From a virus, in the IMG/VR virus record IMGVR_UViG_3300022074_000061, positions 1 through 52,838 of that record: DNA of 52,838 nt, one strand, 5' to 3'. The notes below the pieces were generated by a model. That model was not told the origin of the DNA. It saw only the letters and a list, made by a program, of their open reading frames with translations, and searched no databases. Positions 1,891 through 16,120 of this stretch are shown piece by piece (the first letter of the stretch is position 1; every line of letters starts with the position of its first letter). The position numbers and the translations under genes were made by a program.

Positions 1891-2298
1891 ATGGCAAATA
1901 TAGATGATTTATATAATAAAAGCTTTGGTCAGTTAGGATCAGTTTTTACATCTGGTAGTTCTGGAGTAATAACACCACCTTCAAATAAAGTATTTGTAGC
2001 TATACTTATATTAGATCAAAACACTACTTTTGATACACATGGTGGTTTAGTAGCAGATACAAATAAAGGAGATATGCAATATATTACTACAGAAGATGCA
2101 AGCGGTAATGACATATATTCAGGAGGTGCAAATGGAGGATCACATTCAATAGCAGTGGGTTCTGAAACATTAGAGTTTGGTGGTGGAGGTCAAGAGCTTA
2201 CAAACGCACAAACATTTCCTTTAGGAACAACAATAGTTGGAAGATACAAAAGAATAGCAATAAACTCGGGTGCAGTTATAGCGTATATTGGTGACTGA
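1891..2298 (+). CDS. Small beta-rich virion protein
   Basis: 135 residues, Gly/Ser/Thr-rich, with no signal peptide or charged helices. It begins with a short helix (IDDLYNKSFGQLGSVF) and then beta-prone segments; a Gly-rich stretch SETLEFGGGGQ is present near residue 90. Such proteins accompany tail fibres or decorate heads in marine phages. It ends one base into the next gene (tgATG), so the two are translationally coupled. The start is the ATG 12 bases after a TAnnTTTG promoter. Exact role unknown. Confidence 0.6.
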   Translation: MANIDDLYNKSFGQLGSVFTSGSSGVITPPSNKVFVAILILDQNTTFDTHGGLVADTNKGDMQYITTEDASGNDIYSGGANGGSHSIAVGSETLEFGGGGQELTNAQTFPLGTTIVGRYKRIAINSGAVIAYIGD

Positions 2299-3590
2299 TG
2301 TTAAGTTCAGTCAACTCATTAAGTTCAGCAAATTTTAAAAAATCATTTGCAACCACTACAAATAGAGTTCTTCAACTTGATGGAAGTGGTGATTATGTGG
2401 ACGCCTCTACATTAGCATCTTCAATAGGATTTGGACAAGGCTCTGTTAGTGTTTGGGTTAAGATAGACACAACTAGTGGTAATGAAGCATTTTTTAGCGT
2501 ATGTAAAGATGATGATGGAGATAATAAAATAGAATTACAATATATAACAGCTGACGCCCTTTTTAGAGCTATATACAAATCAGAGGGAACAACAAAAAAA
2601 GCTGTTTTAGTAAGATCTAATTCGCAAGTAGAAGCTGATGAGTTTAATCATTTAGGCTTAGTATATAATACTTCAACAGATCAAATTTCTTTATATTTTA
2701 ATGGAACTAGAATTGATCCAGCTACACCAAGTGCTATAACGATAATAGATGAAGGGACAGTAGGGACATTTAACAGGCTTCAATTTGGAAGAGCAGCTGA
2801 TGGAACAGGTGCGTCATCTCATCATGGAAAGCTTGGTGATATGGCTATTTATGATACAGCTCTTACAGATGATCAAATGACAGAAATATATAATGGTGGA
2901 AAAACTTTTAATCATAATGACGGATCTGCAAGTGGTAATTTATTAGCATGGTACAAATTTGGAACAGGTATAGTAGATGGTATACAAGATTCAACATCTG
3001 TTATTTTTAATTTAAAAAGTACAGGCTTGGGATCAGAGCTAGTAGAAAACTCTGATTTAAGTTCACACGGAACTTCTTCAGATCATGCAAGATTAGGATC
3101 TAATTTTAGTATAGATAACTGGATAATAGAAAAAAATAGTGGAGATTCTGGTGTTAGAACATTTACAGCTTTAGATGGGGGTGGTGTAAGGTGTACTATC
3201 AACACACAATGCACATCAGGCTTTCACCAAAGAATATATCATACTGTAAGTAGTGACTTAACTATTGGTGATTTTTATGTATTTAGAGCTGTTATACTTA
3301 CATCAGATGGTAGCAATGTGAGATGTTCTGTGCAAAAATTAACTTCCGCCTCTGATACTACAAATACAACTCATGGCTCTTTTACAACTACAGTAGCTAA
3401 TGTGCCTACAATAGTTGAAAGTGTATTTAAATGTATAGACAATACAGAACAAAGAATACATATATTTCCTTTAACTACAATAAGCGCAGGGGGGTTTTAT
3501 GAAGTTCATTCTGCAAGTTTAAAAAAATATAGTGGTTTTGCTGCTTTTGCAGTTGCTGATGGTAGCTTAGTTTCAACAGGTTTAAGATAA
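2298..3590 (+). CDS. LamG/concanavalin-like adhesin, tail fibre component
   Basis: 430 residues. Residues about 25-205 read as a laminin-G/ConA-like jelly roll (Laminin_G_3 type): LQLDGSGDYVD at the start, GSVSVWVKI, LGLVYNTSTDQISLYFNG and GKLGDMAIYDTALTDDQM near the end are the usual strand signatures. A linker with AWYKFG leads to a second beta-rich domain (about 240-430) resembling the carbohydrate-binding modules that follow LamG in secreted proteins. There is no signal peptide, so a virion location is likely, with polysaccharide or glycoprotein binding on the host surface as the inferred role. It is coupled to both neighbours by one-base overlaps. Confidence 0.75.
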   Translation: MLSSVNSLSSANFKKSFATTTNRVLQLDGSGDYVDASTLASSIGFGQGSVSVWVKIDTTSGNEAFFSVCKDDDGDNKIELQYITADALFRAIYKSEGTTKKAVLVRSNSQVEADEFNHLGLVYNTSTDQISLYFNGTRIDPATPSAITIIDEGTVGTFNRLQFGRAADGTGASSHHGKLGDMAIYDTALTDDQMTEIYNGGKTFNHNDGSASGNLLAWYKFGTGIVDGIQDSTSVIFNLKSTGLGSELVENSDLSSHGTSSDHARLGSNFSIDNWIIEKNSGDSGVRTFTALDGGGVRCTINTQCTSGFHQRIYHTVSSDLTIGDFYVFRAVILTSDGSNVRCSVQKLTSASDTTNTTHGSFTTTVANVPTIVESVFKCIDNTEQRIHIFPLTTISAGGFYEVHSASLKKYSGFAAFAVADGSLVSTGLR

Positions 3591-3874
3591 TGTATAATAA
3601 TTATACATATGTAATAGTAGAGTCATCAGAGGTTGATAGTTTAAATTTTGAATCTGATGAAAATGAAAACAGATATTTATTAAATTTAAATAAAAATTTT
3701 TTAAGATATAATGTATCTAAAAATAAAGCAATTGTTAAATATGAAGGTAATGATCCTATATGGCAAGATGAAAATGAAAATGATGTAGATTTTTTTAGTG
3801 GAAAAACAAAATACAATCATGAAGAAATACTTAATGTATTAAAAAGTTCTGAATGGTTACAAATTGATGAATAA
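3590..3874 (+). CDS. Hypothetical protein, 94 residues
   Basis: Unrecognised. It is acidic and Asn-rich, with the tail ILNVLKSSEWLQIDE. It sits between the LamG adhesin and the secreted barrel candidate and overlaps both by a few bases, so it belongs to the same operon. It has no signal peptide, membrane segment or cysteine. It could be a fibre chaperone or capping protein because of its position after the adhesin, but that is a guess. Confidence 0.55.
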   Translation: MYNNYTYVIVESSEVDSLNFESDENENRYLLNLNKNFLRYNVSKNKAIVKYEGNDPIWQDENENDVDFFSGKTKYNHEEILNVLKSSEWLQIDE

Positions 3875-4895
3875 GTTTGTATACATATTACTATTATTTA
3901 GTATCAGTACTAATGCACAAATAAATAAATATTTAAAATTTTCTACATTTTATGTAGCTGCAAATGGAGGGACATCAATATCTGATGTTGATGTATATTC
4001 AATTCAAGATGGGCTGCAAACATCTACAATACAAACACCGTATGATTATAATCTATCACTTGGGGTTAGAAAAATAGCTAGATTTGGTTATGAAAATAGA
4101 GCACAAACTTTTTATGATGGCACAGAAACATCATGGTCTGATGCTTCTACACTTGGAAAGGTTAGTGGCTTAGAGTTTTTATTTGAGTTTAATAAAAAAA
4201 GACAAGAAGGTGATGATTATCTAGATCAACACTATTTTATAAGATATGTTGATAATGATTGGTTAACAAAAGTAGAATATCTACAAGATGGATTTGCAGA
4301 CATACAATACTATGAAGCATCACAAAGATATAGGTATAAATACAACAAACATTTATCATTTAATATTGGTGCTGTTCAACGTATAGCAGAGCCTTATGGC
4401 TATGATCCGTTATCAGAATGGTTACTTGATAATGGCGATATACATTACACTTATCTTGCAATACAAGAGGGATATACAATAGATGTTCATAATAGTGAGT
4501 ATAAAGATCCAAATGGAAATATAGTAGCAACATCATCAGATGTTTGGAAAGAAATAATAATACCTAGAGTATTAAGAGATTATGTTGAAAGAAAAAGAGA
4601 TGAATTACCTGCACAATGGAATCACTCTTTAGTTGTTGGGTATGATTATTATTATTATACAAAAATGTTTTGGTTACATTCTTGGGCTAACTTATTACCA
4701 TGGCACTATGATGCGGGTAATGAATATAGCTATCATAAATATAATAATGGTCAGTGGTTAGATTATTCTGGTGGATTAATATTTGGTTATAAGTATAGTA
4801 AACAATTAGGATTATTTGCTGAAGGTAAGTATAATAAATACTGGAATAGAGAATGGTATGATTTTAAATTAGGTGTTAATTATATATTATTATGA
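3867..4895 (+). CDS. Secreted outer-membrane beta-barrel-like protein
   Basis: 342 residues. I chose the ATG at 3867 rather than the TTG at 3864; it gives a clean signal peptide, MNKFVYILLLFSISTNAQ, with the -AQ cleavage site typical of Bacteroidetes. The mature protein is rich in Tyr, Trp and Phe and shows alternating amphipathic segments (YDYNLSLGVRKIARFGYE, HYFIRYVDNDWLTKVEYL, LGLFAEGKYNKYWN) and an aromatic C-terminal strand, FKLGVNYILL. This is the pattern of an outer-membrane barrel. Virion proteins do not carry Sec signals, so it should be exported by the infected host. Role unknown; receptor masking, superinfection exclusion or envelope destabilisation are possible. No homologue was searched. 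Confidence 0.6.
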   Translation: MNKFVYILLLFSISTNAQINKYLKFSTFYVAANGGTSISDVDVYSIQDGLQTSTIQTPYDYNLSLGVRKIARFGYENRAQTFYDGTETSWSDASTLGKVSGLEFLFEFNKKRQEGDDYLDQHYFIRYVDNDWLTKVEYLQDGFADIQYYEASQRYRYKYNKHLSFNIGAVQRIAEPYGYDPLSEWLLDNGDIHYTYLAIQEGYTIDVHNSEYKDPNGNIVATSSDVWKEIIIPRVLRDYVERKRDELPAQWNHSLVVGYDYYYYTKMFWLHSWANLLPWHYDAGNEYSYHKYNNGQWLDYSGGLIFGYKYSKQLGLFAEGKYNKYWNREWYDFKLGVNYILL

Positions 4896-5062
4896 AAGCA
4901 AATTGGATAAATGGCTATAAAGCTAATAACAAAAAAGAAGTATACAGAATAGAATTTAGACTTGGTACAATGACATTATTTTATGTTCATTACTGTGCTT
5001 GTGTTGGTGGGACGTGTTCAAGATTTAGATTGATGTTGTTTAACTTTGGAATAGAATTGTAA
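4892..5062 (+). CDS. Small cysteine-containing protein, 56 residues
   Basis: A short gene fitted exactly between its neighbours: its ATG overlaps the preceding TGA (ATGA) and its TAA overlaps the next ATG (TAATG). It encodes 56 residues, basic at the start and with a central hydrophobic and cysteine-bearing stretch, LFYVHYCACVGGTCSRFRL. The exact coupling on both sides argues that it is a real gene. No signal peptide is evident. Function unknown. Confidence 0.55.
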   Translation: MKANWINGYKANNKKEVYRIEFRLGTMTLFYVHYCACVGGTCSRFRLMLFNFGIEL

Positions 5063-5343
5063 TGTCAAAAGAACTTAATGAAGATACTAGTTTTAAAGTA
5101 AGTGTAAAAACTCTTATAGCAATAGGGGCTGGATTATCAGCTTTAATAGGTATGTGGTTTACGTTACAGGCAGATATAGCTGAAGCTAAAGAACTACCTG
5201 TATCTACACCAGAAGTTACTCGCATGGAGTTTGATATGAAAGATCAAATGATTAGACAATCAATAATCAACACTGAAGCTAATGTTAAGAAACTTGAAGA
5301 AAGAATGATAAGAATGGAAGATAAAATAGATAAACTGAGATGA
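5062..5343 (+). CDS. Single-TM protein with coiled-coil tail
   Basis: 93 residues: a short N-terminal tail, one membrane segment at about residues 16-34 (VKTLIAIGAGLSALIGMWF), then a charged region ending in a coiled coil (ANVKKLEERMIRMEDKIDKL). The topology suits an inner-membrane protein with a periplasmic coil, as in i-spanins or small phage membrane adaptors. It overlaps the next gene (gATGA), which encodes a secreted protein. Spanin is an attractive but unproven reading; no matching outer-membrane lipoprotein is certain. Confidence 0.6.
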   Translation: MSKELNEDTSFKVSVKTLIAIGAGLSALIGMWFTLQADIAEAKELPVSTPEVTRMEFDMKDQMIRQSIINTEANVKKLEERMIRMEDKIDKLR

Positions 5344-5678
5344 AAAAATGTTTGAAATTTTTATTTGTATTATTTTTATTTACGGTATATACAGAATGTT
5401 GTTTTTCACAGATAACAGCAATTTACTTTAATGCATCTTGGAACGCTGCGAATGAAGTTGTTTGGTTTGATAAATTAAATGATGTAGAAAAAGAAACTAT
5501 GGATATCGGTAAAGGTGATTGTCAAAAAAAATATAAAATAGCAGTAGTACCTACAATACTACTTATGAAAGATGGAGAAGAGGTTGAAAGATTTCAAGCT
5601 GATTTAAGTTTTAAATTAATGGCTACTAAAAAAGAAATACAAAATATAATTGATGAACTTTTGATGGAAGATTTTTAA
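5340..5678 (+). CDS. Secreted thioredoxin-like protein lacking the CxxC cysteines
   Basis: 112 residues with a signal peptide ending CCFSQ. The mature part follows thioredoxin order: a strand with aromatic and Trp (ITAIYFNASWNAAN, residues 25-38), a helix, then the cis-Pro strand pair KIAVVPTILLMKDGEEV (66-82) that corresponds to the IPTLLLFKNGE region of thioredoxins. The active-site position WCGPC is replaced by W34-N-A-A-N38, so both redox cysteines are gone. One cysteine, C61, remains in the mature fold. It cannot perform normal thiol exchange; a binding or chaperone role is more likely. It lies between a membrane coil protein and a T9SS cargo gene and overlaps both. Confidence 0.65.
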   Translation: MKKCLKFLFVLFLFTVYTECCFSQITAIYFNASWNAANEVVWFDKLNDVEKETMDIGKGDCQKKYKIAVVPTILLMKDGEEVERFQADLSFKLMATKKEIQNIIDELLMEDF

Positions 5679-8011
5679 TGAAAAAATTTATTTTTATATT
5701 ATTAATATTACAGGCTTGCATTGCACCAAAAGAATGTTGTGGTCAAAAACTTGCTGTTTTAAGCTTAACAACCGATCAGTATCCAACAGAAACATCGTGG
5801 TGTTTATTTGCAGATAGTTTATATGGTGATACTATTAGTTTTATTACTCCAGGAGATTTGACATTACCATATCATAATTATGTAGATACATTTTTTATAA
5901 ACGGACCTATTAACACTATTGTTTTTTTAATTAGAGATACTTATGGAGACGGTATGGATGGTAGTTATTATTTATCTGTATGTGGTGATACAATAATTAA
6001 TAAACCTAGTGTTTCGTTTCAAAGTGGTTTATTTTCTACTAGACCAGTGCCGCCATGTTTACCACAACCACCGCCACCTCAGTCAAATAATAACTGTGTG
6101 CCTACATTAATTAATATAAATTTAGATCAGTTTCCAGAAGAAACATCATGGGATATAGTAGATAGTTTAGGAAACACAATAATATCAGGAGGCACATACC
6201 CAAATGTACCAAACTATCAACCACAATTTATTATTAATTGTTTACCAGAAGGTGAGCTTACATTTACAATTTATGATACATATGGTGATGGTCTTCAAGG
6301 ATCACTATGGGGTGGACAAGACGGATCATATTATATAATGCAGTGTGAAGACACTCTTGTATATGGAACAATAGCTAACTTTGGCAATGACACAAGTCAT
6401 GTGTTTATAAGCGATACTTGCATACCACCACCACCTGTATATGGTTGTACAAATGATGACTACGTTGAATATAATCCACTTGCAACGATAGAAGATAGTA
6501 GTTGTGTTACTTTAAAGATATACGGATGTACAGATAGCACTATGTTTAATTATGATAGCTTAGCTAATACAATAGAAAATATAGATCGCTGTACATATGA
6601 TTTAATATTACATGATTTAGTAGGTAATGGTTGGGTTGGAACAAGATTAGAAATATATCAAGAAGATGATACATCTGTATTTTATATGTCAAATGGTTTT
6701 AATCAATATTTTACTATTGATTTATATGCCATAGAAGAAGTAAGCGCAAAACTATTTGTAAGTCAACAAGCGCAAAGCACTGCACTTGAATGTGGCTTTA
6801 CACTAATTAATCCATACGGAGATACTGCATTAAGCATAAGACCACCTTTTGTGGTGCCGTTTAAATTATATGAAGGTGAAACGTATTGCGGCAATAAATG
6901 TGAAGAAAAAATTTATGGGTGTATGGATTCTTTAGCATTTAATTATGTGGACACAGCAAACGTAGAAACTGTTTGTTATTATTATCCAGGATGTATATCA
7001 CCTGCGTATCTTGAATATCATGTGGATACAACAAATGGTTATTTTACAGATATTAATATACAAGATAGCTGTATAACATTAGCTGTATTTGGATGTATGG
7101 ATGATACTATGTCAAACTATAATGCATTAGCTAATGTAGATAATGGTGGATGTATACCTTATGTGTATGGATGTATGGACCCCTTGATGTTTAATTATAA
7201 TGCTTTAGCTACAGCACCAGATACATGTATACCATATTTATATGGGTGTACAGATCCAACTATGTACAATTATGATTTATTTGCAAATACAGATAATGGA
7301 TCATGTGAACCTTATGTATATGGTTGTACAGACAGTACAATGTTTAACTATAATCCTTTAGCCAATGCTGATAACAATACTTGCCTGCCTTATGTCTATG
7401 GTTGCACTGATCCTAGCATGCTCAACTACAACCCACAAGCGAATACAGAAGATTTCAGTTGCATACCTTACATTTACGGTTGTACTGATAGTACTGCCTT
7501 TAATTATGATTCAACAGCTAATACTGATAATGGCTCGTGTGAAGCTATTGTACAAGGATGTATGGACCAATCAGCATATAACTATGACGTTACGGCTAAT
7601 GTTAGTGACAGTACTAACTGCCTTTTTGATGCTGGTTGCGTCACTGGTCCTGGTTCCCCTTATTGGTTAAACGATCTTTGTTATGCTTGGGTAATAGATG
7701 TAGATGAGTATTGTTGTGAAAATGAATGGGATACTATTTGTCAAAGCACATATAATTATTGTTATAATAATTGGAGTGGTCCAATACTAACTAGACAAAT
7801 AGCAGATCTTGATATATATCCTAATCCAACAAAAGGTAAAATATATTTTAGTAAATTTGTAAATGTTGTATTATACAACATATCAGGACAAGAGCTCAAA
7901 AGAAAAAAGAAAGTACAGGAGTTAGATTTATCTAACATGGAAGAAGGACTATATTTAATTGAATTAAAATACAACGAAAGTGTATTTATAAACAAAATTA
8001 TTAAACGTTGA
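5678..8011 (+). CDS. Type IX secretion cargo with YGCTD repeats
   Basis: 777 residues. N-terminal signal peptide (MKKFIFILLILQACIAPKECCGQ); LQAC could alternatively be a lipobox. Two modules with PxETSW...DTYGDG motifs lie at about 32-110 and 150-245, of a kind found in secreted Bacteroidetes proteins. Residues 255-650 hold about ten units of the type YGCTDPTMYNYDLFANTDNG-SC, interrupted by other modules. A Cys-rich ENEWDTIC module follows. Residues 708-777 match the T9SS type A C-terminal sorting domain: DIYPNPTKGKI, VVLYNISGQEL, LDLSNMEEGLYLIEL and a final KIIKR. The expected fate is Sec export, then T9SS transport and anchoring or release at the host surface. Presence in a phage late operon is very unusual; host origin is likely. 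Confidence 0.85.
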   Translation: MKKFIFILLILQACIAPKECCGQKLAVLSLTTDQYPTETSWCLFADSLYGDTISFITPGDLTLPYHNYVDTFFINGPINTIVFLIRDTYGDGMDGSYYLSVCGDTIINKPSVSFQSGLFSTRPVPPCLPQPPPPQSNNNCVPTLININLDQFPEETSWDIVDSLGNTIISGGTYPNVPNYQPQFIINCLPEGELTFTIYDTYGDGLQGSLWGGQDGSYYIMQCEDTLVYGTIANFGNDTSHVFISDTCIPPPPVYGCTNDDYVEYNPLATIEDSSCVTLKIYGCTDSTMFNYDSLANTIENIDRCTYDLILHDLVGNGWVGTRLEIYQEDDTSVFYMSNGFNQYFTIDLYAIEEVSAKLFVSQQAQSTALECGFTLINPYGDTALSIRPPFVVPFKLYEGETYCGNKCEEKIYGCMDSLAFNYVDTANVETVCYYYPGCISPAYLEYHVDTTNGYFTDINIQDSCITLAVFGCMDDTMSNYNALANVDNGGCIPYVYGCMDPLMFNYNALATAPDTCIPYLYGCTDPTMYNYDLFANTDNGSCEPYVYGCTDSTMFNYNPLANADNNTCLPYVYGCTDPSMLNYNPQANTEDFSCIPYIYGCTDSTAFNYDSTANTDNGSCEAIVQGCMDQSAYNYDVTANVSDSTNCLFDAGCVTGPGSPYWLNDLCYAWVIDVDEYCCENEWDTICQSTYNYCYNNWSGPILTRQIADLDIYPNPTKGKIYFSKFVNVVLYNISGQELKRKKKVQELDLSNMEEGLYLIELKYNESVFINKIIKR
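7085..7627 (+). repeat. Tandem YGC[TM]D-coding repeats (7 units)
   Basis: Seven consecutive units of about 24-28 codons encode [YFQ]GC[TM]D....NY...AN.......C. The protein pattern is conserved, while third codon positions have drifted, so these are old repeats under protein-level selection rather than a recent expansion. Three more diverged units occur upstream within the same gene (about 6440-6600 and 6910-6990). Confidence 0.8.
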
Positions 8012-11250: not shown

Positions 11251-11727
11251 ATGAAACTTAAGGTTTTAAGATTTAGTAGCCAGGAGGATAGCACTTCTGG
11301 CTTACTTTTTTTAGATCACAATGATGGTCTTAAATTTCTATGTTATACTCTTGAAGATGAACACAGATCAAAAAAAGTAAGAGGAGAAACAAGAGTACCT
11401 GCTGGTACATATAATTTATCACTTAGAAAAGTAGGAGGCTTTCATGAAAGATATAAAAAGAAATATGGTGCGTTTCATAAAGGAATGTTACAAGTTATGG
11501 ATGTACCAAACTTTGAATATATTCTTATACATACTGGTAACACTGATGAGCATACTGCTGGATGTTTACTTGTTGGTGACTCGCAAGAAAACAACATCAT
11601 TATCAAAGATGGATTTATTGGTAAATCAAATAATGCGTACAAAAGAATATATCCAGATATTGCAAAAGAGATTAAAAAAGGCAATAAAGTAACAATTCAG
11701 TATATTGATTTAGATAACAATGATTAG
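11251..11727 (+). CDS. DUF5675 lysin, L,D-transpeptidase-like
   Basis: 158 residues. ETRVPAGTYNL (46-56), GMLQVMDVPNFEYILIHTGN (78-97) and HTAGCLLVGD (101-110) are the defining blocks of the DUF5675 family. The H94-x-G-N...G-C105 arrangement resembles the active site of L,D-transpeptidases, with Cys105 as the candidate nucleophile. In phages these proteins sit beside holins and are taken as endolysin or murein-modifying enzymes. Here a 3-TM holin is about 1.2 kb upstream. It has no signal peptide, consistent with release through the holin. It overlaps the giant fibre gene by eight bases. Confidence 0.75.
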   Translation: MKLKVLRFSSQEDSTSGLLFLDHNDGLKFLCYTLEDEHRSKKVRGETRVPAGTYNLSLRKVGGFHERYKKKYGAFHKGMLQVMDVPNFEYILIHTGNTDEHTAGCLLVGDSQENNIIIKDGFIGKSNNAYKRIYPDIAKEIKKGNKVTIQYIDLDNND

Positions 11728-14700
11728 AAAACTTGGAATCAATCAATTTGAATATGATGTAGAGTTTAAGGGAGATGTAAGGTTTCCTGAAATTACAAGC
11801 ACATCAACATCTCTTGATACAATCGTTATTGATTCTACAGGTAAGCTTTTTAAAAGCACAGGATCAGAACCTGATGGTATAGGTTTTGATGGAAGTGGTG
11901 ATTTAATAATACAGCAACCAACTTCTGATAAAGATATAATATTTATAGCACCTGGAACATCTGATTTAGGAGACACCGTAACATATATTACTATTGATTC
12001 AAGTGTTGCTACAATACTATTTAGTCAAGAAGCAAGATTTACTGATAATGTTAATTTAAAGTTTGGGACTGGTGGTGACACGATGATTTATCATGATGGT
12101 AGTAATTCATATATAGATCATACTGGTACTGGGCATTTATATATAAGACAAGGTAGTGACGATAATGATATTATATTTCAAAGTGATGATCAGTCTGGTG
12201 GTTTAACAACATATTTAACTTTAGATGGAAGTAATGGTTATATTAGGCTAGAAGATGATAGAAGATTAACCATAGGTAGCGGTAATGATTTACAATTAAG
12301 ACATACATCGTCTGGAACATTTATAACTAACTTTACACATGACTTTAATATAGTTCAACAAGCAGCTGATAAAGATATAACTTTTCAATGCGATGATGGT
12401 AGTGGAGGTGTTGAAACATATTTCTTCTTAGATGGTAGCGCTAGTAGTGGTAATCCAATAACACAATTTCCTGATTTATCACAATTAGTTTTTGGTAATT
12501 CACAAGATTTACTTTTAAGGCATGATGGCACTGACAGTTTAATTCAAAACAATGGTGGTGATTTTATTATTAGTCAACATACAAACGACAAAGATTTAAT
12601 ATTTAAGTGTGACGATGGCAGTGGTAGTACTACTGAATATTTTAGACTAGATGGTGGTTCTGAAAAAACATTTTATAGTAAACCTATATTGCTTTTTGAT
12701 TCTGTTGCATTACAGTTAGGTACAGGTACTGATGCTACTTTATACCACTCTGGTGGTGAAGGTACTTTACAGAATTTTACTGGTAACTTTAGAATTATAC
12801 AAAGTGCAGACAATAGTGATATACAGTTTTTCTGCGATGACGGATCTGGAGGAACTACAGAGTATTTGAGAATTGATGGTGGTCAAGAAGTAAATATTTT
12901 TTCTAAAAACATAAAGCTTGAAGATAATGTAATGGGTATGTTTGGAGGTGGTAATGACCTAAAACTACGCCACAATGGAACAGATAGTTTTATTGAAAAT
13001 GAAACAGGTGATTTAACTATTAAAAATTCTGCAGACGATAAAGACATAATTTTTCAAAGCGACGACGGATCAGGGGGTACAACTACATATTTTTATTTAG
13101 ACGGTGACACAGTTCATAATAGATTTCCTAAAAGTATACTACTTGATGATAATGTTAATCTTGATTTTGGGGGTTCTGGAAATACTAGAATTAAAACTGA
13201 TGGTACAGATACTTTTATTCAGAATTATGTTGGTGATTTTTATATACAACAAGCTACTGACGACAAAGACATTATCTTCCAATCAGATGACGGTAGCGGC
13301 GGTAGTGAAACATATTTTAGATTAGACGGTAGCACTGGTTATGTTCAGTTTGCTGACAATAGAAGAATAACTATAGGTAGTAGTGATGACGCTAATATCA
13401 GACACGATGGAACAGATACATATATAGGTAATAGTACAGGTCATTTTTATATACAACAAGCTACTGACGATAAAGATCTAGTATTTCAGTGTGATGATGG
13501 AAGCGGAGGTTTAGCTACGTATTTTACGCTTGATGGTAGTTTAGCTAGTGGATCACAGTATTTTACTAAATGGGCTGATAATAGTATAGTTGCTTTAGGT
13601 AGCGCGCCTGACTTGTTTATATTTCATGACGGTTCTAATAGTTATATTAGACAATTTACAGCTCATGATTTAATAATAGAAAACATAAGTGATGATAAAG
13701 ACGTTATTTTTAGATGCGATGACGGTAGTGGCGGTGTGACCGCTTATTTAACTTTAGATGGTAGTGAAACTAATATAAAAGTAGAAAAAAACTTATATGC
13801 TACAGACGGTGTCTTGTTAAGTGTAGGTAGTGGTTTAGATTTAAGATTAAAGCATGATGGTACTGATAGTTTTATTTTTAATGAAACTGGACATTTATAC
13901 ATACAAAATAAAGCTGATGATAAAGATATTATCTTTCAATCAGATGATCAATCTGGTGGCGTAACAACATATTTTTTCTTAGATGGTAGTAATAGTAGCG
14001 GTAATCCAGTAACTATATTTCCTGATAACTCTAAACTTACTATTGGTACTTCTAGTCATGGTATTAGTTTATTACACGATGGTAGCAACTCTACTATAAC
14101 TAATGCTATAGGTAATTTAACAATTACTAACTTTCAAGATGACGGTGACATAATATTTAAATCAGATAATGGAAGTGGCGGTACAACTACTTATTTAACT
14201 TTAGATGGTGGTTTTTCAGTTCCTTACGTTGCTTTAGAAGACAGCACTATATTAGCTCTTGGTACACATAAAGATCTTTTACTTACTCATGATGGCACAG
14301 ATTCTAAGATTGACAACATGAATACTGGTGATATTAAAATTAGACAATTTGCTGATGATAAAGATATAGTTTTTTATAGTGATAACGGTGCGGGTGGAAC
14401 GGCAGAGTATTTTAAATTAGATGGTAGTTTAGCCGCACATGATGGTAGTTCATATACAGCTTTATACACAGCTTTTCCTGATAATAGCTTAGCTGCTTTT
14501 GGTGATAGTCAAGATTTAGTGATGTATCACAGTGGTAGCAATAGTTTTATAAGACATCTTGGTACTGGTCATTTATATATTGATAACACTACAGATGATG
14601 CTAATATATATTTTAGAAGTGATGATGGATCTGGTGGTTTAGCTACATATTTTAGGTTAAATGGTAGTGCTGCAGAAACTGTAGTAAGTAAAAACATGAG

Positions 14701-16120
14701 GTGGGAAGATAGTGTTGAGGCTCGTTTTGGTGATGGTAGTGATTTACAAATAGATCACGACGGAAGTAATAGTTATATAAAAAATGAAACTGGTAATTTA
14801 AACTTACAAAATAACGCTGACGACGCAGATATAGCTTTTTACTGTGACGATCAATCAGGAAGTGTTGCTGAATACTTTAGGTTAGACGGTAGTCTAGGTA
14901 TAAATAGATTTTTTAAAGATAGCAGACATAATGATAGCATTACAGCTAGTTTTGGTAGTAGTGACGATCTAAAAATACAGCATAATGGCACAGACAGCTA
15001 TATACAAAACTTTACTGGTAATTTAAATATAATACAACATTTAGATGACGGCCGTATTAATTTTCAATGCGATGATGGTAGCGGAGGTGTTACTACTTAT
15101 TTTTTCTTAGATGGTAGTTTAGCTAATGGTACAGATCAACTAGCAACTGTTTTTCCTGATACAAGTAAAATATTTTTTGGTACAGGACAAGATATGCAAA
15201 TTTACCATAGCGGAACACATAGTTTTATAAGACAAACAGGTGTTGGTAATTTATATATAGATCAAACTCAAGATGATGCAGATTTAATTTTTAGATGTGA
15301 CGATGGTAGTGGAGGTTTAGCTACATACTTTATGCTTGATGGTAGTTCTAAAAGAATTGATATTCCAGATGATATACGCTTAACGTTAGGTACTAGTGAT
15401 GATCTTCAAATTTACCACAACGCTACAAATTCTGTAATAGAAAATTATACTGGTGATTTTTTTATTAAAAACAATACTGACGATGGAGATATTAAGTTTC
15501 AGTCTGATGACGGAAGTGGAGGAACTACAGAGTATTTGAGAATTGATGGTGGCACTGAAACAGTTGAAGTAGCTAAACCAATTAATTTAGCAAGTGCAAG
15601 TTCTTCTACATCATCTGGTATATACGCTCAGTTTATAAATATAAAAGGTTTTTGTACATTAGCCGCTAATTATAAATATGCAGAAGATCAAGAAGATACA
15701 TTAGCGCCTTATGAAATGGCAGAAGATTATGGTAGCGCAACAATTAGTAGTAGTACAGAAGTTAATCAATCAAAAATGTTTAGATCATCTGGTTTTCACG
15801 TGCCAGTTGCTTGTAGTGTTAATGCTATAAACATGCAAGTAACTTGTAATAATACTGGTAACGTTACTATAGCTGTAGTTGAATATAGGCCTTCTGAATT
15901 AGCTGCAGATCAAGTAGATCATCCAAGAACAGTATATGAAGAAGTTGTAGTAGCTTCTAATGATAATAATAACAAAGTAAAAACAGTAACAGTAGCAACA
16001 GCAGACTTAGATAATACAGCAGTACCTGCTGGTAGTCATATAATGATTATGGCTAAAGGTGATAGTGATAGTATTGGTGGCAAAGCGTTTATAAGCGCTG
16101 CAATAGAAATCAAATGGTAA
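11720..16120 (+). CDS. Giant repeat tail fibre protein
   Basis: 1466 residues. After an N-terminal section with a half unit, about 16 units of 69-80 residues follow, each built as DLxLxHDGTDSFI-x-N-xTGxLYI, then DDKDIIFQSDDGSGG and TTYFxLDG. This repeat is familiar from marine phage fibres and probably forms a long trimeric beta-helical shaft. The last about 180 residues (from YAQFINIKGFCTLA) are a different beta-rich domain, likely the tip or a head-group that binds receptor. No chaperone domain or autocleavage motif is obvious. The gene is followed by a separate promoter for the small genes behind it, which may be assembly partners. Confidence 0.8.
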   Translation: MIRKLGINQFEYDVEFKGDVRFPEITSTSTSLDTIVIDSTGKLFKSTGSEPDGIGFDGSGDLIIQQPTSDKDIIFIAPGTSDLGDTVTYITIDSSVATILFSQEARFTDNVNLKFGTGGDTMIYHDGSNSYIDHTGTGHLYIRQGSDDNDIIFQSDDQSGGLTTYLTLDGSNGYIRLEDDRRLTIGSGNDLQLRHTSSGTFITNFTHDFNIVQQAADKDITFQCDDGSGGVETYFFLDGSASSGNPITQFPDLSQLVFGNSQDLLLRHDGTDSLIQNNGGDFIISQHTNDKDLIFKCDDGSGSTTEYFRLDGGSEKTFYSKPILLFDSVALQLGTGTDATLYHSGGEGTLQNFTGNFRIIQSADNSDIQFFCDDGSGGTTEYLRIDGGQEVNIFSKNIKLEDNVMGMFGGGNDLKLRHNGTDSFIENETGDLTIKNSADDKDIIFQSDDGSGGTTTYFYLDGDTVHNRFPKSILLDDNVNLDFGGSGNTRIKTDGTDTFIQNYVGDFYIQQATDDKDIIFQSDDGSGGSETYFRLDGSTGYVQFADNRRITIGSSDDANIRHDGTDTYIGNSTGHFYIQQATDDKDLVFQCDDGSGGLATYFTLDGSLASGSQYFTKWADNSIVALGSAPDLFIFHDGSNSYIRQFTAHDLIIENISDDKDVIFRCDDGSGGVTAYLTLDGSETNIKVEKNLYATDGVLLSVGSGLDLRLKHDGTDSFIFNETGHLYIQNKADDKDIIFQSDDQSGGVTTYFFLDGSNSSGNPVTIFPDNSKLTIGTSSHGISLLHDGSNSTITNAIGNLTITNFQDDGDIIFKSDNGSGGTTTYLTLDGGFSVPYVALEDSTILALGTHKDLLLTHDGTDSKIDNMNTGDIKIRQFADDKDIVFYSDNGAGGTAEYFKLDGSLAAHDGSSYTALYTAFPDNSLAAFGDSQDLVMYHSGSNSFIRHLGTGHLYIDNTTDDANIYFRSDDGSGGLATYFRLNGSAAETVVSKNMRWEDSVEARFGDGSDLQIDHDGSNSYIKNETGNLNLQNNADDADIAFYCDDQSGSVAEYFRLDGSLGINRFFKDSRHNDSITASFGSSDDLKIQHNGTDSYIQNFTGNLNIIQHLDDGRINFQCDDGSGGVTTYFFLDGSLANGTDQLATVFPDTSKIFFGTGQDMQIYHSGTHSFIRQTGVGNLYIDQTQDDADLIFRCDDGSGGLATYFMLDGSSKRIDIPDDIRLTLGTSDDLQIYHNATNSVIENYTGDFFIKNNTDDGDIKFQSDDGSGGTTEYLRIDGGTETVEVAKPINLASASSSTSSGIYAQFINIKGFCTLAANYKYAEDQEDTLAPYEMAEDYGSATISSSTEVNQSKMFRSSGFHVPVACSVNAINMQVTCNNTGNVTIAVVEYRPSELAADQVDHPRTVYEEVVVASNDNNNKVKTVTVATADLDNTAVPAGSHIMIMAKGDSDSIGGKAFISAAIEIKW
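12060..15590 (+). repeat. Sixteen fibre-shaft repeats of about 220 bases
   Basis: Each unit encodes the HDGTDS...DDKDIIFQSDDGSGG...YFxLDG block. Units differ at many synonymous and some coding positions, so they are diverged, not recent copies. Three units (about 12380-12480, 13960-14040, 15070-15180) carry a longer loop with the shape FFLDGSxxxGxP...FPD, giving two alternating unit lengths. Confidence 0.75.

Follow-up and report, generated by a model that had tools for sequence, protein, structure and literature searches.

Cargo proteins of the type IX secretion system (T9SS) have been predicted in phage genomes before. Such phage-coded cargos were published for Cryophage (PMC7468147, Nat Commun 2020), whose authors proposed roles in inter-strain competition or superinfection. 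For the C-terminal sorting domains (CTDs) of T9SS cargos, a review names no types besides A, B, and C (PMC10202324), and type A tails are served by PorV (PMC10994853, PMC12618676). Here we analyze a cargo gene at positions 5678 to 8011 (+ strand) of the IMG/VR virus record IMGVR_UViG_3300022074_000061, taken in its entirety (52,838 bases; "the window" below). The initial annotation of this DNA had proposed that the gene codes for a cargo of the host's T9SS and that no characterized case was known. The latter holds as far as we found; predicted cases have been published (PMC7468147, PMC6949934). We describe the signal peptide and CTD of the cargo, the gene cassette to which it belongs, exchanges of its tail among related phages, and the occurrence of both kinds of tail in bacteria. 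We think it likely that the infected Bacteroidota cell exports this phage-coded surface protein by its own machinery, as part of a four-gene cassette and with either of two tail types, and that late remodeling of the cell surface is the most likely role.

The window gene encodes a predicted type A T9SS cargo

The open reading frame (ORF) has all the parts that had been ascribed to it, namely, a signal peptide, YGCTD repeats, and a full type A sorting domain. From N to C terminus, its product consists of a signal peptide (MKKFIFILLILQACIAPKECCG), a pair of beta domains with DxYGDG, a third beta domain at the center, ten YGC[TM]D repeats (YGC[TM][DN] type, all within amino acids [aa] 255 to 650), a cysteine motif, CCENEWD, and the CTD. 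Cleavage is predicted before Q23, which is nearly invariant across 47 relatives; signal peptides were called throughout by sequence inspection and a crude hydropathy rule. There are 38 cysteines in the mature protein, and in the whole-family alignment 33 columns are at least 90% cysteine, a content that would be expected of an exported, disulfide-bonded protein.

Both sorting-domain profiles matched aa 713 to 777 above their thresholds: TIGR04183 with an E value of 2.5e-9 and 37 bits (cutoff, 23) over model positions 1 to 72 of 72, and PF18962 with an E value of 1.7e-9 and 38.3 bits (cutoff, 27) over positions 1 to 74 of 75. The cargo tail was the only TIGR04183 match in the window record. The AlphaFold model of the cargo was modest overall (pLDDT 71, pTM 0.28) and good in the tail, where the block means of pLDDT for residues 711 to 777 were 67 to 88. 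This tail model had the Ig-like CTD fold, superimposing on the solved CTDs of FspA (8glj_D; Z 8.1, 68 residues, root mean square deviation [rmsd] 2.3), NucA (8glk_D; Z 8.1), and RgpB (7pq4; Z 8.3), with Z 8.1 to 8.3 and rmsd 2.3 over 67 to 68 residues for the three structures. Profile scores above the curated cutoffs, the modeled fold, and the signal peptide together give good support to the prediction that the window protein is a type A T9SS cargo. Outside the CTD, Foldseek matches were long, poor alignments that did not identify the N-terminal and repeat domains.

Relatives of the cargo were present at 52 loci in one scan of IMG/VR, so that the same gene does occur in related phages. Where the 5' end was intact, almost every relative was positive in the crude signal-peptide test. 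The cargos are about 600 to 1100 aa long, with repeats and interchangeable N-terminal domains; at L038:2386-4854, the N-terminal domain is a MAM domain (PF00629, E value of 2.7e-20), a domain present in 2 of 47 cargo relatives. Whole-gene ratios of nonsynonymous to synonymous substitution rates (dN/dS) were 0.06 to 0.22 across 18 pairs, indicating purifying selection.

The cargo gene is part of a conserved four-gene cassette

The cargo gene travels with genes for an outer-membrane barrel, a coiled-coil protein with a single transmembrane segment (TM), and a cysteine-less thioredoxin-like protein. These three partners were found at 42, 42, and 43, respectively, of the 52 loci, and most other window genes were common to few. 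Flanks of 5.5 kb or more on each side were available for 43 unique barrel loci, and every one of these carried the four genes on one strand, in an order that differed among loci. The barrel alone matched at least 585 IMG/VR stretches; its best viral match was an unnamed protein of 342 aa (E value of 1.1e-23). The proposal of a phage gene for a host T9SS cargo thus stands, on the sorting-domain models, the fold of solved CTDs, and a cassette common to many independent phage contigs.

The model of the barrel (pLDDT 74, pTM 0.63) is that of a generic barrel. CymA was its best fold match (Z 11.9), and 8gl6_F, a 367-residue chain of a T9SS complex, reached Z 10.0; many unrelated barrels scored about equally. 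Identification as PorP/SprF by sequence failed, with no match to any Pfam family at E values up to 1. A tail-specific shuttle is also disfavored, given that two loci that differ in tail type (L017 and L037) have barrels that are 92% identical.

In the thioredoxin-like protein, both catalytic cysteines are replaced, giving WNxxN in place of WCxxC in the window and in nearly all relatives. This disfavors a catalytic oxidoreductase, and the protein is therefore probably a noncatalytic binder.

A motif close to SC[AT]xPKxCC[GSA]Q occurs in the signal peptides of 49 of 106 barrels and 6 of 111 cargos and in none of 3102 other ORFs. It may include a lipobox besides a signal peptidase I site. Between the barrel and TM genes of the window (about 4892 to 5062), we also read a 56-aa ORF with a cysteine-rich stretch, HYCACVGGTC.

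Two kinds of tail are exchanged among phage cargos

The sorting-domain profiles, which recognize the window cargo, did not extend to most of its relatives: TIGR04183 or PF18962 matched only 10 of the 47 aligned cargos, because the majority carry a tail of another type. In the others, the CCENEWD region is followed by a GPLPxR-like linker and then by a 39-aa short tail, such as KKLVAVTDLLGRPTQIIKNKLLLFIYSDGSVTKKIIK. Among the 89 unique cargo C termini from both scans, 61 (about two thirds) were short and 28 were canonical. When TIGR04183 was run over 12 phage records, each of the seven with a canonical-tail cargo gave one match above the cutoff, and none of the five with a short-tail cargo did.

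Tail type changed 12 times on a tree of the cargo core (the cargo without its tail, 84 rows), and at least 10 of these changes are forced by well-supported branches (those starred on the tree). L017 and L037 are 95% identical in the cargo core, 92% in the barrel, 99% in the coiled-coil protein, and 97% in the thioredoxin-like protein, and their tails are unrelated. The repeated changes and this pair with unrelated tails therefore suggest that selection retains a sorting tail rather than a particular kind of tail. Just one complete cargo, L168:1802-3826, has no tail. It stops early at DIDEYC; since a short tail continues just downstream in another frame, either a deletion or an assembly fault would account for it.

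The short tail also occurs in bacteria, nearly all of them with SprA

A profile built from 14 phage short tails found 3 to 23 copies in each of 12 genomes from the family to which a Cryomorphaceae metagenome-assembled genome (MAG) belongs. This is our candidate host family, and we presume its order to be the host order. The same 12 genomes carry 22 to 43 type A tails each, plus SprA. Across the order, the short tail was present in 56 of 148 genomes, in up to 47 copies, and the positive genomes were nearly all 0.8 to 2.0 Mb in size. When the lists were compared, SprA was found in 55 of the 56 positive genomes versus 69 of the 92 others, a comparison that phylogeny confounds; the positive genome lacking a SprA match (G108) is 1.3 Mb in size.

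In genome G024, with 47 short-tail matches at E values up to 1e-5, all 21 matches that were fetched (one a partial duplicate) ended 0 to 1 residue before the stop codon, and 17 had a detected signal peptide. In G001, every significant match lay 0 to 5 residues from a stop codon, with signal peptides on only some of the proteins and with ORFs that were often broken. Because it ends proteins that bear signal peptides, and because 55 of the 56 positive genomes have SprA, the short tail probably serves as a T9SS sorting signal not described before. We found no literature on a short T9SS tail in a search that covered mainly open-access papers.

A broader proposal, to which we give even chances, is that the short tail constitutes a fourth T9SS signal class, borne in small-genome Bacteroidota by as many as dozens of proteins per genome and revealed by at least 10 phage exchanges with type A, and that the cassette is a self-contained phage surface-display set (cargo, barrel, noncatalytic thioredoxin-like protein, and coiled-coil protein) that couples to the host translocon and forms a core element of infection. 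If so, present T9SS models lack a tail class, and the secretomes of small-genome marine Bacteroidota are undercounted. The tail exchanges would then serve as natural matched pairs for asking which features the translocon reads.

A possible pathway of export and its purpose

From the sequences we infer how the cargo would be exported, what its partners would contribute, and what purpose export would serve. The signal peptides suggest that Sec carries the cargo, the barrel, and the thioredoxin-like protein across the inner membrane, where the last, a likely folding helper, may help the cysteine-rich cargo to fold. The C-terminal tail would take the cargo through the T9SS translocon, SprA, and the elongated, disulfide-rich protein would then be anchored on, or released from, the outside of the infected cell. 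The coiled-coil protein would sit in the inner membrane, and the outer-membrane barrel would be a likely partner or anchor of the cargo. We favor this over a reader of the tail because the barrel is not PorP/SprF by sequence and is independent of tail type. The phages carry either the type A tail or the short tail, which also ends proteins of small-genome bacteria of the presumed host order, and they have swapped the two repeatedly, the constant feature being the possession of a sorting tail.

The variable N-terminal domains (MAM in two relatives), together with adhesin-like repeats, favor an outward binding function. The most likely role would be a late remodeling of the host surface, which would keep further or progeny virions from adsorbing. 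Given export, our first choice is receptor masking, followed by adhesive release and then by egress; masking late in infection is put forward tentatively, at a little short of even chances. If the proposal is true, widespread uncultured marine Bacteroidota phages routinely re-coat their hosts by means of the host secretion system, and the benefit that phages draw from T9SS cargos becomes testable by ordinary fusion assays.

Several results weigh against export to the cell surface, or against a sorting function of the short tail. Among 50,697 phage records there was no cultured relative of the cargo, barrel, thioredoxin-like protein, or TM protein, and because the cassette is in no cultured phage, we infer its host and timing. 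YGCTD repeats also occur in phage proteins of 1450 to 3017 aa with neither a signal peptide nor a sorting tail (L029:440-5038, L036:1717-6210, L043:1493-5845, and L052:4022-13072), so the repeat is uninformative on export. These large proteins are probably virion proteins, and a binding module may be common to them and the exported cargo. Since unrelated barrels resemble the cassette barrel about equally, it is linkage alone that points to its partnership with the cargo. As for the short tail, no Pfam or NCBIfam model recognizes its sequence, with no TIGR04183 or PF18962 match in short-tail members; the type C CTD model gave a single, nonsignificant match (E value of 0.58) among 47 members, and alignment with the C-terminal half of the type A CTD was weak (hhalign probability of 7%, pairwise E value of 0.005).

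Alternatives to display on the host surface

We also weighed release to the medium, in which the cargo would be secreted in soluble form as a public good, or would be an adhesive causing cells or debris to clump, rather than being displayed for receptor masking. Type A cargos may be released or linked to lipopolysaccharide (PMC10994853), and repeat and MAM-type domains suit adhesion. The conserved, linked outer-membrane barrel suggests, indirectly, retention at the membrane, and we consider release unlikely.

Less likely again is that the cassette breaks the envelope for egress, with the coiled-coil protein acting like an i-spanin, the barrel and cargo destabilizing the outer membrane, and the T9SS merely delivering the cargo. 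The product of 5062 to 5343 does have an i-spanin-like layout, one TM followed by a coiled coil, and a holin-like gene with three TMs and a DUF5675 gene lie close to the cassette in the window. However, lysis proteins are usually small, whereas the cargos are of the size and modular, MAM-containing build described above, and the cassette proteins match no PHROG lysis family.

It is improbable that the cargo is a virion adhesin or decoration protein whose signal peptide and tail mount it on particles or maintain its folding. Repeats of the same YGC[TM]D kind are found in the large signal-peptide-less proteins of related phages, some of them encoded near the cassette. Against this, the signal peptides of nearly all relatives, the sorting tail of every complete gene except the frame-disrupted copy, and the swaps to a tail that is in use on bacterial proteins all point outward and away from assembly of virions in the cytoplasm.

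Finally, these bacteria abound in T9SS cargo genes, and a YGCTD protein of one bacterial MAG is 43% identical to the cargo across the repeats (bacterial homologs amounted to two weak loci only). A host gene carried along without function, host DNA picked up by transduction, or a chimeric assembly contaminated with host reads is nevertheless for practical purposes refuted, because the same cassette, under low dN/dS, is common to many independent phage contigs and the barrel was missing in 147 of 148 bacterial genomes. In the single positive genome, the contig that encodes the barrel also has genes for a phage-type DNA polymerase and DnaB. On L192, a phage contig binned in bacterial genome G123, positions 124 to 1716 code for a Nol-like carbamoyltransferase (phrog_1601, E value of 2e-87), possibly a surface modifier.

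The virus and the surroundings of the cassette

The viral context of the cargo gene is firm. The terminase large subunit (TerL; phrog_6681, E value of 2.1e-94), portal (phrog_6547, E value of 9.3e-118), and major head protein (phrog_11589, E value of 5.4e-31) are encoded in the same record, as are further virion proteins. Relatives of TerL occur in gut crAss-like and other Bacteroidota phages at about 30% identity, the best matches being crAss-like records, and the same TerL family is present in seven of eight other cassette carriers. Judged by these matches, the window virus is a crAss-like phage (Crassvirales), as are most of the carriers examined. No terminal repeats were found in the window, and circular permutation was not borne out by comparison with five relatives, the 3' end having no match to their DNA upstream of the cassette.

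The cargo gene shares its strand with the structural genes and adjoins the holin-like gene, which scores just below the Pfam cutoff, and the DUF5675 gene, a position that fits a late gene. The features of the cassette are collected in Table 1.

Table 1. Positions of cassette features in the window, with examples of the signal-peptide motif at other loci
Feature	Position	Strand	Basis or remark
Outer-membrane beta-barrel, about 12 strands, with signal peptide	3864..4895	+	57-97% identical in 42 of 52 first-scan loci; structure model
93-aa protein, one transmembrane segment plus coiled coil	5062..5343	+	Read from sequence; weak phrog_12220 match
Predicted exported thioredoxin-like protein, WNxxN at WCxxC site	5340..5678	+	Overlaps neighboring genes by a few bases
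Predicted T9SS cargo gene	5678..8011	+	ATG start, 777 aa; sequence, profile matches, structure model
Signal peptide of cargo, aa 1-22	5678..5743	+	Sequence; Q23 conservation; signal peptides in relatives
YGC[TM]D repeat region, aa 255-650, cysteine rich	6440..7627	+	Sequence; family alignment
Type A T9SS C-terminal sorting domain, aa 713-777	7814..8008	+	TIGR04183; PF18962; fold match
SC[AT]xPKxCC[GSA]Q-like motif, examples	L006:5658-6737; L024:9962-12529; window 5678-5746		Signal-peptide region of outer-membrane protein and cargo genes

Elsewhere in the window, positions 11720 to 16120 encode a tail-fiber-like protein (phrog_13518, phrog_8745). Its repeats, of which there are at least 14, lie about 207 to 240 nucleotides apart and are about 60 to 70% alike. 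Upstream of the cassette, a protein with a lectin-like Laminin_G_3 domain (2298 to 3590; E value of 3.4e-18) is only 35% identical between the window and its nearest relative, L002, in which the barrel and w117 are 97% identical to those of the window. The TerL match in the L002 record (G150:C1:3819-5696) crosses six in-frame stop codons (one TGA, three TAG, and two TAA), for which frameshifts, an insertion, or a decayed gene are candidate explanations.

Comparison with described systems

As far as our searches reach, what is new is the conserved cassette and how broadly it occurs, the exchange of tails, and the short tail itself. The short tail takes the place of the type A CTD in phage cargos and, like it, stands at the extreme C terminus of exported proteins. 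It differs from the described CTDs (type A, TIGR04183/PF18962; type B; and type C/ChiA, NF033708) in being 39 aa long, in having no YPNP box, and in giving no significant match to these models. The linkage of an adhesin-like cargo gene to an outer-membrane barrel gene recalls the pairs of type B substrates and PorP/SprF-like shuttles (PMC12618676, PMC9143113). There, however, the tail is of type B, whereas the phage tail is type A or short, and the phage barrel matched no Pfam family and is independent of tail type, as the tail-swapped sisters with 92% identical barrels illustrate.

In crAss-like gut phages (PMC6949934), T9SS tails have likewise been noted on phage ORFs, near the head section and near BACON proteins. 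BACON domains belong to that setting and not to the cassette studied here; the cassette, the tail exchange, and the short tail are not described in the parts of that paper at hand. Cryophage (PMC7468147) is similar in that it, too, is a phage whose genes encode type A T9SS sorting domains. The cargos there are the products of three variable genes (endoglucanase, GH39, and PA14) in flexible islands, whereas here a single conserved, cysteine-rich repeat protein is encoded in a fixed four-gene cassette that is spread across many phages and provided with one or the other of two alternative tails.
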